Below are positions 10,520-62,463 of a DNA stretch of 64,000 nucleotides, piece after piece. A model generated the notes under the pieces. That model was not told the origin of the DNA. It did no database searches and was given only the letters and a program-made list of their open reading frames with translations. The stretch lies in assembly GCA_016124455.1 (NCBI GenBank), contig WGNQ01000006.1, positions 1-64,000 of the forward strand, given 5' to 3'. How positions within the stretch are numbered: position 1 is the first letter of the stretch; every line of letters begins with the position of its first letter. Made by a program: the position numbers and the translations under genes. This DNA is from Sideroxydans sp. (GTDB lineage Bacteria; Pseudomonadota; Gammaproteobacteria; Burkholderiales; Gallionellaceae).

Positions 10520-12243
10520 GTTTTACCCTGCACGGCATCCCGGTATCCAGCGGCATTGCCATCGGCCATGCCCACCTGGTTTCGCACACTACGCTGGAAG
10601 TAGCGCACTACACTTTGCCCAAGCATCGGGTGGAGGAAGAGGTCACGCGCTTTGCCGCCGCGCTGGAGACGACCAGACAGGAGCTGAGCGCACTGCACGC
10701 CAACCGCCCGCAGTATGCGGGTGCCGAGTTCGATGCGTTTCTTGATCTGCATCTGATGATTCTGGCTGACGACCATATCAGCCAGGCGCCACGCGAGATG
10801 ATATTGCGTGAACACTGCAATGCCGAGTGGGCGCTCAAGGTGCAGATGGATGAACTGGTGGAGCAATTCGACGCTTTCGAGGATGCCTACCTGCGTGAGC
10901 GCAAGACCGACGTGGTGCAGGTGGTGGGGCGCCTGCTCAAGACGCTTACCGGCCAGCCCGGGCATGTGCCGCCTGCGCCCGGCCATGACGACAACATGAT
11001 CCTGGTGGCGCATGACTTGAGCCCCGCCGACCTGATCCAGTTCAAGCCGCACCAGTTCGCCGCCTTCATCACCGATCTCGGCGGCGCCACGTCGCATACA
11101 GCGATCATCGCACGCGGCCTGAATACGCCGTGCGTGGTCGGCTTGCTGCATGCGCGCCAGTTGATGCGCGAGCACGACCTGCTGATCGTGGATGGGCGGC
11201 AGGGGGTGATTATCGTCAACCCGGACAAGCAGGTACTGGCCGAATACAAGCTGCGCCAGAGCCAGCTGGATCTGGAGCGGCAGAAGCTGCGGCGCCTGCG
11301 TACGGCGCGCGCCAATACGCTGGACGGGACGCATGTCGAACTGCACGCCAACATCGAGATGCCGCACGACCTTGCCGAGGTGAATGCTAACGGTGCGACC
11401 GGCATCGGCCTGTTCCGCAGCGAATTCCTGTTTCTCAACCGTGACGACCTGCCGGACGAGGAAGAACAGTTCGAGGCGTATTGTGCCGTGGCGGAAGGCA
11501 TGAAGGGATTGCCGGTGACCATCCGGACCTTCGACCTCGGCGCCGACAAGCAGCTCAACCATACCAAGCGTGTAGCCAGCAATCCTGCGCTGGGGCTGCG
11601 CGCAATCCGCCTCAGCCTGGCCGAACCGCAACTGTTCCGCATTCAGTTGCGTGCACTGCTGCGCGCTTCGCATTACGGCAACGTGAAAATCCTGGTGCCA
11701 ATGCTGTCCAGCCTGTCGGAAATAAACCAGACGCTGCAGTTCATTGATCACGTCAAGAAGGAGCTCGACGAAGAGGGCATCGCCTACAATCGCAATGTGC
11801 CGGTTGGCGGCATGATCGAGATTCCGGCCGCTGCGCTGGCGCTTAATGTGTTCACCAAGAAGCTGGATTTCCTGTCGATCGGCACCAACGACCTGATCCA
11901 GTACACGCTGGCCATCGACCGCACCGACGAGGAGGTGGCGCACTTGTATGATCCGTTACATCCGGCGGTCCTGCACCTGCTGGCACATGTCATTGCGGGC
12001 GCCAACAAGGCCGGCGTGCCGGTTTCGGTGTGCGGTGAAATGGCCGGTGAACTGGCTTATACGCGTTTGCTGCTGGGGCTGGGCCTGCGCCAGTTCTCGA
12101 TGCATCCTTCGCAGCTGCTCGGTATCAAGCAGCGCGTGCTGACCACCAGCCTGCCGGAGATTGCATCGTTGACACAGAAAATCCTGCGTGCGGACGACCC
12201 GTTGAAAATCCGCGAATTGCTGGAAAAACTCAATGCGCAATAG
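10516..12243 (+). CDS. ptsI: PTS enzyme I (phosphoenolpyruvate-protein phosphotransferase)
   Basis: 575 aa, the usual length. It autophosphorylates from PEP and passes phosphate to HPr. The N-terminal phosphohistidine domain holds GGATSHTAIIARGL (catalytic His about residue 193). The PEP-binding TIM barrel has TGIGLFRSEFLFLNRDDLP, TFDLGADKQL, GTNDLIQYTLAIDRTDE and the C-terminal active Cys in VSVCGEMAGE. It is the last gene of the IIA-ptsH-ptsI set. Seven bases after the stop begins the promoter of the metX riboswitch. Confidence 0.96.
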   Translation: MSFTLHGIPVSSGIAIGHAHLVSHTTLEVAHYTLPKHRVEEEVTRFAAALETTRQELSALHANRPQYAGAEFDAFLDLHLMILADDHISQAPREMILREHCNAEWALKVQMDELVEQFDAFEDAYLRERKTDVVQVVGRLLKTLTGQPGHVPPAPGHDDNMILVAHDLSPADLIQFKPHQFAAFITDLGGATSHTAIIARGLNTPCVVGLLHARQLMREHDLLIVDGRQGVIIVNPDKQVLAEYKLRQSQLDLERQKLRRLRTARANTLDGTHVELHANIEMPHDLAEVNANGATGIGLFRSEFLFLNRDDLPDEEEQFEAYCAVAEGMKGLPVTIRTFDLGADKQLNHTKRVASNPALGLRAIRLSLAEPQLFRIQLRALLRASHYGNVKILVPMLSSLSEINQTLQFIDHVKKELDEEGIAYNRNVPVGGMIEIPAAALALNVFTKKLDFLSIGTNDLIQYTLAIDRTDEEVAHLYDPLHPAVLHLLAHVIAGANKAGVPVSVCGEMAGELAYTRLLLGLGLRQFSMHPSQLLGIKQRVLTTSLPEIASLTQKILRADDPLKIRELLEKLNAQ

Positions 12244-12249
12244 CGATGA

Positions 12250-12278
12250 TTGACAGCATCAGCTAAAACCGGGACACT
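12250..12278 (+). promoter_or_regulatory. Sigma-70 promoter of metX-metW
   Basis: Perfect -35 TTGACA (12250-12255), 17-bp spacer, weak -10 GACACT (12273-12278). The predicted start, about 7 nt later (12285), falls exactly at the first base of the riboswitch P1 stem, which supports both calls. Confidence 0.55.
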
Positions 12279-12284
12279 TCGTTC

Positions 12285-12337
12285 CGTGCCGATTTGATCT
12301 CAGCTTGCGGGGCACGTAAAACATACCAGCTAAAGCG
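12285..12337 (+). promoter_or_regulatory. SAM-II riboswitch aptamer
   Basis: P1 is CGTGCC (12285-12290) with GGCACG (12311-12316). The core carries the conserved SAM-II elements in order and spacing: GATTTG (12291-12296), AGCTTGC (12302-12308) and the 3' pseudoknot strand GCTAAA (12329-12334), which pairs back to the AGCTT loop. It precedes metX, a known SAM-II target class. SAM binding is expected to shut off methionine synthesis. The terminator just downstream completes a transcriptional switch. Confidence 0.85.
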
Positions 12338-12340
12338 TTC

Positions 12341-12379
12341 AACCCGTTTTGGCGCAAGCTGGACGGGTTTTGTGTTTTT
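12341..12379 (+). terminator. Riboswitch-controlled terminator of metX
   Basis: Stem AACCCGT (12341-12347) with ACGGGTT (12363-12369), then TTGTGTTTTT. The loop contains CGCAAGCTG (12353-12361), a perfect 9-base complement of the aptamer segment CAGCTTGCG (12301-12309). Pairing of the two would break both aptamer and terminator, giving an antiterminator for the SAM-free state. Confidence 0.85.
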
Positions 12380-12389
12380 GGAGTTTCTT

Positions 12390-13523
12390 TTGGAAAATTC
12401 AGTAGGGATAGTCAGCGCGCAGCGCGCCACTTTCGATACCCCGCTTACCTGCAGCAGCGGCGCGGTACTGCCGCGCTATGAACTGGTGTATGAAACCTAT
12501 GGCAAGCTGAACGGCGACAAATCCAATGCCATCCTGGTCTGTCACGCACTTTCCGGTCATCACCACGTGGCGGGACAATATGCGGACGACCCCAAGAGCA
12601 CCGGCTGGTGGGACAACATGATCGGTCCGGGCAAGCCGATCGATACGGAAAAGTTTTTTGTCATCGGGCTCAACAACCTTGGCGGCTGCCACGGCTCCAC
12701 CGGCCCTTCCAGCATTGACCCGCAAACCGGCAAGCCATACGGCGCAAGTTTTCCGGTGGTGACGGTGGAGGACTGGGTAGCGTCGCAGGCGCGCCTTGCC
12801 GATATGCTCGGTATCGAACAATTTGCCGCCGTGGTCGGCGGCAGCCTTGGCGGGATGCAGGCCATGCAGTGGTCGCTCGACTTCCCCGAACGCGTGCGCC
12901 ATGTGCTGGCGATCGCGACCGCTCCCAGGCTGACTACCGAGAACATCGCGTTCAACGACGTGGCGCGCAACGCCATCCTGACCGACCCGGATTTCCACGG
13001 CGGCAATTACTACGAGCACGGCGTGGTGCCGAAACGCGGGCTGCGCCTGGCGCGCATGCTCGGCCACATCACGTATCTTTCCGACGATGCGATGGCCGAC
13101 AAATTCGGGCGCGGCTTGCGTTCCGGCAAGTACAACTACGGCTACGATATCGAATTCGAGATCGAGTCCTACCTGCGTTATCAGGGCGACAAGTTTGCCG
13201 CTTATTTCGATGCCAACACCTATCTGCTGATGACCAAGGCGCTGGATTATTTTGATCCGGCGCACCGCCACGGCGACGACCTGAACAAGGCGTTTGCCGC
13301 CGCGCAGGCAAATTTCCTGGTGCTGTCATTCACCACCGACTGGCGTTTCTCGCCCGAACGCTCGCGTGCCATCGTCAAGGCCCTGCTGCATAACCGCCTC
13401 AATGTGAGCTACGGCGAGATTGCCTCGACCCATGGCCATGATTCGTTCCTGATGCCGCATGCGCATTACCACGCGCTGATGCGCGCCTATCTGGAACGCA
13501 TTGCACAGGAGTTTTCCGCATGA
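12390..13523 (+). CDS. metX: Homoserine O-acyltransferase MetX
   Basis: About 377 aa alpha/beta hydrolase acylating homoserine (acetyl or succinyl donor), the entry step of methionine synthesis. Nucleophile Ser is in [14 protein letters not shown] (about residue 150). Also present are [24 protein letters not shown], and the late Asp and His of [12 protein letters not shown] and THGHDSFL. The start is TTG at 12390 with GGAG (12380-12383) 6 nt upstream. The frame is open further 5', but that segment is the riboswitch and terminator. metW follows with a 4-nt overlap, an arrangement often associated with succinyl-transferase MetX in proteobacteria. Confidence 0.94.
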
Positions 13524-14134
13524 GCGCGCACGATCCGGCAGAACTTGCTGCCGCACGCCCGGACTTCGCCGCCATTGCCGCCTGGATTCCGCAAGGCGCA
13601 TCGGTGCTCGATCTCGGTTGCGGCGACGGCAGCTTGTTGCGCTACCTGCAGGATACGCGGCAGGCGCGGGGTTACGGCGTGGAAATCAGCGATGCCAACA
13701 TCATTGCCTGTATCAGGAATGGCGTTAACGTGATTCAGGGTGACCTGGAATCCGGGCTGTCCGGTTTTGAGTCCAGTGCTTTCGATTTTGTGGTCCTGTC
13801 GCAGACGCTGCAGGCCACGCGTCATACCGAGGCACTGGTACGCGAGATGCTGCGGGTCGGGCGTGAGGGCATCGTCAGTTTCCCTAATTTCGGCTACTGG
13901 AAGAACCGCCTGAATATATTGCGCGGCCATATGCCGGTATCCAGGGACCTGCCCTACCAGTGGTATGACACGCCCAATGTCCACCTGTGCACGCTGGGGG
14001 ACTTCGAGACATTCTGCGGTGAACACCAGGTGCATATTCTTGAGCGCCGGGTAATGACCGGCGGTAGCGAAATAAGCGCGCTTCCCAACCTGCTGGGCAG
14101 CACCGCGGTGTACCGCTTCAAGCGCGCGGCCTGA
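13520..14134 (+). CDS. metW: Methionine biosynthesis protein MetW
   Basis: 204 aa protein with a class I methyltransferase fold: SAM-site [12 protein letters not shown] (about residue 30), GVEISDANI and [14 protein letters not shown]. MetW works with MetX for full homoserine acyltransferase activity in several proteobacteria. It overlaps metX by ATGA and shares the SAM-II riboswitch control. Confidence 0.94.
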
Positions 14135-59403: not shown

Positions 59404-59592
59404 AAAAGTCCCCCACCTGTGCCGTTTTGGTTCAGCATCTTGAACCTGAAGTTCAAGAAGGCCATTCGCCAGTCGCATCAGGTACATCCGCAAAGGGACG
59501 CGCACAACAGCAACATTCGGGTCACGACCGTACGCAATGCGTATTGGTTCTAAGAGTATATGAACCTTGCGAACACCGCAGGGGACAACTCC
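59404..59592 (-). ncRNA. ssrS: 6S RNA
   Basis: About 185-190 nt RNA downstream of zapA, the usual site. On the minus strand the ends pair through GTCCCCTG and CAGGTGGGGGAC, with the long rod interrupted by a central bubble, and the strong inner hairpin CTTGAACTTCAGGTTCAAG (about 59437-59459) matches the equivalent TTGAAC element of E. coli 6S RNA. 6S RNA binds sigma-70 holoenzyme in stationary phase. The exact ends are approximate. Confidence 0.85.
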
Positions 59593-60111: not shown

Positions 60112-60224
60112 TTTCAAACTATAGTTCAGAAAAACCTGATGAGTCAAACGGTAACGAGAATTTCTGAAAGTTGTTTGCGATGAAGGGTGGCTGGCCGCAT
60201 AGTTTGTTACAATAGCGGCGCTTC

Positions 60225-60396
60225 AAGGTGCCGGGCAAATTATTTGCCCGGTTAAACGGGAAACAGGTGCGAAACCTGTGCTGCCCCCGCAACGGTAAGC
60301 AGGTGCGGGCGTGTCATCAAGCCACTGTGAGTGATCATGGGAAGGCGATGCGCCCCGATCTTTCGGATCAACCCTGCGAGCCCGGATACCGGCCTT
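60225..60396 (+). promoter_or_regulatory. Cobalamin (AdoCbl) riboswitch
   Basis: Contains the B12-box elements in order: TTAAACGGGAAAC, GGTGCGAAACCTGTGCTGCCC then CCGCAACGGTAAG, GCCACTG, GGGAAGGCG, and GCGAGCCCGGATACCGGCC. Ends pair AAGG / CCTT. It lies 190 nt before btuB. A TACAAT (60208-60213) just upstream could be the -10 of its promoter. The region 60112-60224 holds no gene. Confidence 0.93.
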
Positions 60397-60545
60397 GGCG
60401 CGGGATTGTTGAATGGCCGGCTGGCCGCTCAGCAGTCCACAGGTCGGGAAATGCTGCGGGCGGCGCATGGACGGCAGGCAAATGCGCCGTGATGGCGTCC
60501 GCCTTCCGTTTCTGTCACCCTCCGCGGTATTTCCTGTGTTTGAAC

Positions 60546-60568
60546 ATTCCAACGGGGACGTTTGGAAT
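60546..60568 (+). promoter_or_regulatory. Hairpin just upstream of the btuB start
   Basis: ATTCCAA / TTGGAAT stem around CGGGGACGT, ending 17 nt before the btuB ATG and next to the AGGA ribosome-binding site. It may be part of the riboswitch expression platform acting on translation; there is no T-run for termination. Confidence 0.4.
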
Positions 60569-60585
60569 TCGCTCAGGAAAATCTC

Positions 60586-62463
60586 ATGAAACATACCAGG
60601 TTGTTTGCCGCCATTTTATGTGCGGCGCCCCCATTCGCCTACGCGGCAACAGGCGATACATCCGATGAAATTGTAGTGACCGCCACACGCATCGCACAAC
60701 CCTTGAACCAGACGCTGGCGCATACCTCGGTGATCAGCCGGCAGGACATCAGGAATGCGCAGGCCGTGGACGTGCCGTCCGTGCTGAGGGATCTGGCCGG
60801 CGTCGAGTTTTACCAGTCCGGAGGTATTGGCAAGCAAAGCAGCCTGTTCCTGCGCGGCGCCAATTCCAGCCATGTGCTGATCCTGCTGGACGGGGTGCGT
60901 ATCAATTCCGCGACGACAGGCAGCACGGAACTCGATCAGCTGATGCTGGACCAGGTCGAACGTATCGAGGTGGTGCGCGGCAATGCCAGCAGCCTGTATG
61001 GTTCCGAGGCCATCGGCGGTGTTATCCAGATTTTTACCCGGCATGGCGGGGGCGCGCCCTGTTTCAATGCCAGCGCAGGTATTGGCACGCATAATACCCG
61101 GCATGTCTCCGCAGGGTTCAGCGGGCAGAGCGGTGATGCAGACTTCAGTGTGCAGGCTTCACATTACAAGACTGCCGGCGTGTCGGCCATCAAGCCCAGC
61201 ATCGTACCCACGGTGAACCCGGATCGGGACGGCTACGACAACACCAGCTTGTCGGCCAGCCTGCATTACGCACTGGATATGGACAACGGCCTGGCGGTTT
61301 CCCTGCTCGACAGCCAGGGTAGCAGCCAGAACGACAATTCCTTTGGCCTGCCCACCGATGTGAACACCAGTAAATCGCATATCCAGAAATTGTCGCTGCT
61401 GTCGGACAACCGGATCAACGCAACATGGCACAGCAAGCTGCAACTGGCGCAAGGCGTGGACGATACCCGGAATTTTCTGAATGGGATGCCCGATATAGCG
61501 CTGGGCGCGCTGTTCAAGACAGTCAACAACCAGGTGACCTGGCAGAATGCGTTGCAGTTCGATGAAAACAGCATCTTGAACCTTGGTGCGGAAGGTCTTA
61601 CGCAGCAGGTGGCAAGCGACACTGCCTATACCCGCAACAAGCGTACTGCGCACAGCCTGTTCGCCGGCTATACCGGAAACTTTGGCGCGCATCAGCTGCA
61701 GGCCAACCTGCGCGAGGATCGCTATTCCGATTTTGGTGTGGCGGATACCGGATTGCTGGGCTACGGTTATGCCATCAACGAGAAGTGGCGTGCCACGGCT
61801 GTGGCAAGTACTGCATTCAAGGCGCCAACGTTGAATGACTTGTACTACCCCCTGATAAATTATGGCACTTTCGGCGGAGTGACCTATTCATACCAGGGCA
61901 ATCCGAATCTGAAGCCCGAGCGTTCGCGCAATGCAGAGCTGGGCATGCACTATACGGCCGGCGGACAGCAGGTGGATGTTGCATATTTCGACAGTCGCAT
62001 CCGAGACCTGATTGCCAGCAACGGTTTGGCCGCAGGATCGGTAATCAACCTGAGCCAGGCACGCAACGAAGGCTGGGAATTCAGTTATGACGGACAGTTC
62101 GGCGATACCGGCGTCAAGGCGGCATTGACGTTGCAGAATCCGCGTGATGGCCAGACCGGCCAGTTGCTGGTGCGTCGTGCCAGGTCGTATGGCAGCATCG
62201 GGATAACGCAGCGACTGGGACTCTGGAAGGTCGGTGGAGAGTGCCAGTTCAGCGGCCCGCGTGTGGATTACGATATCAACACCTTTGCGCGTACCACGCT
62301 GTCCGGATACCAGGTGGTCAACCTGACTGCGAACTATGCGCTCGACAAGCATCTCAACCTGTCGCTGCGTGCCGACAATGTGTTCAACAGGGACTACATG
62401 CTGGCCCATGGTTATAACACTCTGGGGCGCACCGTGTTCGTTGCCGTGAACTATCAGCAATAA
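60586..62463 (+). CDS. btuB: TonB-dependent vitamin B12 receptor BtuB
   Basis: 625 aa. Signal peptide of about 20 residues (PFAYAATG), TonB box DEIVVTATRI, plug domain with FLRGANSSHVLILLDGVRIN and VERIEVVRGNASSLYGSEAIGGVIQIF, then 22-strand barrel ending VFVAVNYQQ. Start ATG 60586 (MKHTRLFAA) with AGGA upstream. Control by the preceding cobalamin riboswitch supports the B12 substrate. Confidence 0.94.
   Translation: MKHTRLFAAILCAAPPFAYAATGDTSDEIVVTATRIAQPLNQTLAHTSVISRQDIRNAQAVDVPSVLRDLAGVEFYQSGGIGKQSSLFLRGANSSHVLILLDGVRINSATTGSTELDQLMLDQVERIEVVRGNASSLYGSEAIGGVIQIFTRHGGGAPCFNASAGIGTHNTRHVSAGFSGQSGDADFSVQASHYKTAGVSAIKPSIVPTVNPDRDGYDNTSLSASLHYALDMDNGLAVSLLDSQGSSQNDNSFGLPTDVNTSKSHIQKLSLLSDNRINATWHSKLQLAQGVDDTRNFLNGMPDIALGALFKTVNNQVTWQNALQFDENSILNLGAEGLTQQVASDTAYTRNKRTAHSLFAGYTGNFGAHQLQANLREDRYSDFGVADTGLLGYGYAINEKWRATAVASTAFKAPTLNDLYYPLINYGTFGGVTYSYQGNPNLKPERSRNAELGMHYTAGGQQVDVAYFDSRIRDLIASNGLAAGSVINLSQARNEGWEFSYDGQFGDTGVKAALTLQNPRDGQTGQLLVRRARSYGSIGITQRLGLWKVGGECQFSGPRVDYDINTFARTTLSGYQVVNLTANYALDKHLNLSLRADNVFNRDYMLAHGYNTLGRTVFVAVNYQQ

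Follow-up and report, generated by a model that had tools for sequence, protein, structure and literature searches.

The SAM-II riboswitch class (SAM_alpha, RF00521) was shown to bind SAM and was proposed to work with OFF logic by Corbino 2005 (PMC1273637), and terminator-linked members were reported in both alpha- and beta-Proteobacteria by Barrick and Breaker 2007 (PMC2258182). That this class controls transcription had yet to be proven in 2007, and the question has since been followed mainly in S. meliloti, where no response to SAM is predicted for the terminator of the metA SAM-II (PMC9373788). Two further descriptions are close to the locus studied here. In the accessible sections of Leyn 2014 (PMC4239095), a “metXZ” element that is treated as novel is described from 35 beta-proteobacterial genomes, where it precedes metXW or metZ, with Nitrosospira multiformis listed as carrying it before metZ; its pseudoknot is formed from regions 1–4 and 2–6, terminators of variable sequence follow, and SAM_alpha is said to occur only in Rhizobiales and Rhodobacterales. 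Khoo 2012 (PMC3521395) described the Burkholderia sRNA Bp2_Cand287_SIPHT, which is Rfam family RF02424. No mention of SAM-II was found in the accessible parts of transcript studies of B. cenocepacia and H. seropedicae.

Within the window, i.e., the whole 64,000-nt stretch of DNA that was analysed, the leader of interest is located between an upstream 575-codon ORF, which ends at 12243, and metX. From 5′ to 3′ it runs from TTGACA/GACACT through P1 CGUGCC, GAUUUG, CAGCUUGCG and P1′ GGCACG to GCUAAAGCG, the terminator, GGAG and a UUG start, with the following features:

12250–12278, plus strand: putative sigma-70 type promoter (−35 TTGACA 12250–12255, 17-nt spacer, −10 GACACT 12273–12278)
12285–12337, plus strand: SAM-II aptamer (P1, L1, P2 pseudoknot strands, L3), from RF00521, the beta model and P1 covariation
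12285–12290, plus strand: P1 5′ strand, CGUGCC
12291–12296, plus strand: GAUUUG
12301–12309, plus strand: strand 0, the P2 5′ strand CAGCUUGCG; alternative partner 12353–12361
12302–12308, plus strand: AGCUUGC
12311–12316, plus strand: P1 3′ strand, GGCACG
12329–12334, plus strand: GCUAAA
12329–12337, plus strand: strand 1, the P2 3′ strand GCUAAAGCG; alternative partner 12345–12353
12341–12379, plus strand: intrinsic terminator (hairpin 12341–12369, −13.7 kcal/mol, GCAA tetraloop; U tract 12368–12379)
12345–12353, plus strand: strand 2, CGUUUUGGC, terminator 5′ half; predicted partner of strand 1 in the read-through state
12353–12361, plus strand: strand 3, CGCAAGCUG, terminator apex and 3′ half; predicted partner of strand 0 in the read-through state
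12380–12392, plus strand: metX Shine-Dalgarno GGAG (12380–12383) and UUG start codon (12390–12392)
12390–13523, plus strand: metX, homoserine O-succinyltransferase type (NF047916, NCBIfam MetX_succinyl, 680 bits, cut-off 560)
13520–14134, plus strand: metW (TIGR02081, 266 bits; PF07021, E 3.9e-69)

The first-pass annotation had read P1, GATTTG, AGCTTGC, GCTAAA and the terminator from the letters alone, and all of these are real and were placed correctly. Its assignment of the downstream genes to metX–metW agrees with the MetX_succinyl and MetW matches, and its betaproteobacterial host with the neighbours of MetX, which are from Gallionellaceae (those with names are Gallionella, Sideroxydans, Nitrotoga and Ferrigenium). 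Of 58 distinct metX leaders from Gallionellaceae, 52 contain an exact TTGACA, in most of them 41–42 nt 5′ of GATTTG, compared with 4% of shuffled upstream sequences when one mismatch is allowed; the −10 GACACT is weak (3/6), and from this promoter transcription is expected to start at ~12285. The terminator stem pairs AACCCGU (12341–12347) with ACGGGUU (12363–12369) and is followed by UUUUGUGUUUUU (12368–12379); it was not flagged by a simple terminator scan, presumably owing to the stem and loop limits of the scan. An upstream repeat of CAGCTAAA at 12260–12267, considered as the remnant of a second aptamer, was put down to chance, as it lies in the promoter spacer and is absent there in relatives, and the weak Rfam matches in the leader (anti-hemB, BjrC68) are likewise chance matches far under their cut-offs. 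Elsewhere in the window we observed a Cobalamin riboswitch (60209–60411, 118.6 bits) upstream of an ORF at ~60562–62463 that resembles a TonB-dependent BtuB-type receptor, as well as a 6S RNA on the minus strand (59406–59587, 52.6 bits).

Judged by sequence and covariation, the element is a real SAM-II riboswitch and an ordinary member of its family, with SAM binding expected from class membership. The Rfam model RF00521 matched 12276–12354 with 37.0 bits, where the gathering score is 36, so that the class named in the first-pass annotation passed the covariance check by 1 bit, while a beta-type covariance model built from 40 members of the order (this one included) gave 62.8 bits (E 2.9e-14). 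Across these 40 diverse sequences the six P1 pairs are 97.9% paired, and two of them show both-sided changes; such changes number 15 overall, compared with 4.1 in shuffles. When the pairing was slid, the paired fraction reached no more than 59%, down from 96%. The P2 pseudoknot can form six pairs and stays 95% paired; four of the pairs are invariant and none covaries, so covariation is uninformative for P2 because it hardly varies. GAUUUG, GCUUGC and GCUAAA, all present here, are near-invariant across 198 elements, the flanks CAGCUUGCGGG and GCUAAAGCG are nearly fixed in the beta-type, and P1 exists in the versions GCGCC/GGCGC and GTGCC/GGCAC, with a third, GCGTC/GACGC, in genomes of one family (f31) that were found via RF02424.

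The first-pass annotation took the presence of SAM-II in this group to be notable and suggestive of transfer, a view that did not survive a search of related betaproteobacteria, in which the riboswitch is common and beta-proteobacterial cases were already published in 2007. With RF00521 it was found in 112 of 158 Gallionellaceae genomes covering 15/15 genera, in 178 of 399 genomes drawn from the order and in 89 of 274 sampled throughout the class. Within the order, the beta model detected it in 189 of 250 genomes, which represent 100 of 121 genera, so that about half to three quarters of the genomes of the order carry it. The first description of the class came from Alphaproteobacteria, which would fit a recent horizontal acquisition of SAM-II from that group, but the element occurs in all 15 family genera and 100/121 order genera at metX, metZ, metH and metK, and has a beta-type consensus of its own. 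Because of this distribution we reject transfer as extremely improbable; the pattern looks like vertical inheritance.

The genome carries a second SAM-II before metZ (O-succinylhomoserine sulfhydrylase; 30.1 bits with Rfam, 74.4 with the beta model), and since the two switches are placed before metX and metZ, they cover both consecutive steps from homoserine to homocysteine. Downstream genes of the 198 elements were metX in 104 cases and metZ in 53, and the rest include metH, metK and a MATE exporter operon. The MATE-family exporter, a regulon member that is absent from the cited literature, has SAM-II upstream of it in leaders L120, L136, L148, L163, L170, L178 and L190 and further in L193, L200, L203, L206, L226 and L228; where these loci were inspected, a small ORF comes first (~110 aa, starting MFDC or MYDC), which had no Pfam match in two examples. 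Tandem SAM-II elements were seen at L190, L206, L239, L247 and L270 with L274 (Vogesella oryzae), where a canonical copy is followed by a divergent second one (GATTTAAT..ACAACTTGCGGGGCGC.ATCGAAAT..CGCTAAAGCG or near) that directly precedes a small ORF and after which no terminator was seen; the ligand of this second copy may differ from that of the first. Some Gallionella metX leaders contain a small extra hairpin in L3, between P1 and GCTAAA (L265 at G046:C29, L266 at G047:C20, L069 and L076).

How the aptamer acts on metX and metW was assessed from its pairing options, using 237 unrelated terminators from the retrieved DNA as controls. An intrinsic terminator follows the aptamer and, by sequence and folding prediction, has a mutually exclusive alternative. 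The 9-base complement between 12301–12309 and 12353–12361 reported in the first-pass annotation is exact, with a duplex energy of −17 kcal/mol; its placing in the terminator loop was wrong, since the hairpin (12341–12369) reaches the GCAA tetraloop and 12353–12361 is thus the terminator apex and 3′ arm, not a free loop. A run of at least nine pairs with strand 0 occurs in 1.7% of the control terminators and the duplex energy is reached by 0.4%, which makes a match by chance unlikely but not extraordinary. Strands 1 and 2 form a 9-bp run with two G–U pairs that is equalled in none of the 237 controls, and this second pairing, missing from the first-pass annotation, leaves the antiterminator given there real but incomplete. 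Both pairings are stronger in Gallionellaceae metX leaders than in control terminators (p 3e-14 for 0:3 and p 3e-10 for 1:2), for related sequences that are not independent; within the family, runs of at least six pairs were found in 98–100% for strands 0:3 against 50% of controls, and in 45–100% for strands 1:2 against 15%. Leaders of metZ, both in this family and in others, favour the 1:2 pairing, and at metX outside Gallionellaceae it was no better than in controls. A terminator within 110 nt 3′ of the aptamer is kept in 189 of 198 related leaders, and the expression platform clearly drifts between lineages.

The timing of synthesis distinguishes the two pairings. Strands 1:2 are available ~8 nt sooner than strands 0:3 and dominate the co-transcriptional folds; with the nascent end at 12354, when neither strand 3 nor the 3′ arm of the terminator has been made, the 1:2 hairpin is in the minimum fold (−19.4 kcal/mol). 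Constrained full-length folds gave −27.1 and −27.2 kcal/mol for read-through and −26.7 kcal/mol for the terminated state (0.5 apart), in a programme that scores neither pseudoknot nor ligand, and such nearly equal energies are as expected for a switch. The models suggest that the 1:2 and 0:3 pairings are compatible and together would make up a four-strand exchange. Without SAM, strand 1 (GCUAAAGCG) would pair with the 5′ half of the terminator immediately upon its synthesis and strand 0 (CAGCUUGCG) could pair with the terminator 3′ half, so that the terminator would be consumed and RNA polymerase would read through. With SAM, the P2 strands 0 and 1 would pair together around the ligand, leaving terminator halves 2 and 3 to pair and stop transcription before metX. 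We consider it probable that this beta-type SAM-II controls metX–metW transcription by attenuation through such an exchange, where SAM binding, the order of events and the OFF logic are what we infer. The riboswitch probably turns the methionine genes off when SAM is plentiful, which supports in outline the OFF logic via an intrinsic terminator that the first-pass annotation had put forward.

Other uses of the same strands were weighed against the four-strand exchange. That the 0:3 pairing is the only antiterminator, as first modelled, draws on its perfect 9 bp at −17 kcal/mol with so few controls as strong, on AAGCUG being kept in most Gallionellaceae metX terminators and on enrichment at metX in other families too. 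Its partner, however, is made only after the terminator 3′ arm has begun to appear, formation of the duplex melts or entangles P1, and GCAA-capped terminators give a partial match for free, as the half of controls with at least six pairs illustrates. In the Gallionellaceae metZ leaders, moreover, the 0:3 duplex energy is not significantly better than that of controls, whereas that of 1:2 is. The complementarity of strands 0 and 3 is also partly necessary because 0–1, 1–2 and 2–3 must each pair, and the 9-mer is therefore not independent proof of the model built on it; we regard 0:3 acting by itself as unlikely. A local antiterminator, in which CCAGCU at 12326–12331 (the 3′ P2 strand region) pairs with AGCUGG at 12357–12362, i.e., strand 1 with strand 3, is a third pairing and the one present in the free minimum-energy fold. 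Across the order, CGGCUAAA in place of CAGCUAAA goes with AGCCG in place of AGCUG in the terminator (13 against 5, versus 3 against 48), counts that are not independent of kinship, and in some lineages the base before GCUAAA shows covariation-like changes with the terminator 3′ arm. Leaders with CCGCUAAA, on the other hand, often keep AGCUG (7 cases), which would break the pairing, and we find the local antiterminator possible yet doubtful.

A different division of labour, in which the aptamer acts mainly on translation and the terminator is constitutive, has a precedent in the S. meliloti metA SAM-II, which controls translation while its terminator seems to be unregulated (PMC9373788); in keeping with it, the ribosome-binding site here directly follows the U tract, and a few relatives (e.g., L175 and L179) have GAGG inside the P2 strand and are without a terminator. 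This site nevertheless lies outside every predicted aptamer and terminator helix, and the terminator soon after the aptamer is kept in nearly all relatives (189/198), so translational action at this locus seems decidedly improbable. As an observation on other leaders, GAGG stands in the P2 3′ strand shortly before ATG in L175, L176, L179, L187 and L189, a type for which the sequence makes translation control likely; no terminator was found at L175.

The riboswitch itself is ordinary, and what reaches beyond it is a moderately useful correction of annotation. Many betaproteobacterial copies escape the Rfam SAM-II model, that at metZ of Nitrosospira multiformis among them; SAM-II apparently accounts for methionine regulation in Betaproteobacteria that has been labelled unknown or novel, and the SAM-II antisense strand is what one Rfam “sRNA” family seems to represent. 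A small terminator-linked aptamer with near-equal computed states would also offer a compact test of SAM-II transcription control.

Compared with SAM-II as described (RF00521; Corbino 2005, PMC1273637), the beta-type shares the layout of P1 and pseudoknot, the GAUUUG, GCUUGC and GCUAAA core, a sulfur-pathway gene downstream and the terminator; it differs in its nearly fixed CAGCUUGCGGG and GCUAAAGCG and in having little of the long variable P2a of the Rfam consensus. Because the flanks are fixed and P2a is mostly missing, it scores near or under the Rfam cut-off. With the metXZ element, as far as the accessible sections of Leyn 2014 (PMC4239095) describe it, it shares genes (metXW, metZ), group, position, pseudoknot topology and terminators, and in two Nitrosospira multiformis genomes the beta model gave 71.4 bits before metZ, exactly where those sections place metXZ, with no RF00521 match there at E 0.001. 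RF02424 (PMC3521395) likewise overlies SAM-II matches upstream of metZ or metX but was built on the opposite strand and described as an sRNA. Comparison of match lists placed RF02424 opposite a SAM-II element at no fewer than 25 sites, among them all three matches above its 70-bit cut-off (L232–L234, 107–204 bits), the sense strands of which carry GCGTC, GATTTGA, CAGCTTGCG, GACGC and CAGCTAAAGCG before metZ; in the window it reached 17.6 bits on the minus strand (12290–12360), under that cut-off. RF02424 apparently represents SAM-II leaders of Betaproteobacteria in reverse complement, and by position, strand and sequence metXZ and RF02424 appear to be the same riboswitch. The full proposal, that one beta-type SAM-II stands behind three names (SAM_alpha, metXZ and RF02424) and switches by a four-strand exchange with both P2 strands and both terminator arms, is tentative, and we give it slightly less than an even chance. 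The metZ SAM-II of S. meliloti (PMC9373788) has in common with the element described here a terminator that is predicted to depend on SAM and lies upstream of an enzyme that forms homocysteine, and differs in belonging to an alphaproteobacterium and in that its expression was studied in vivo.
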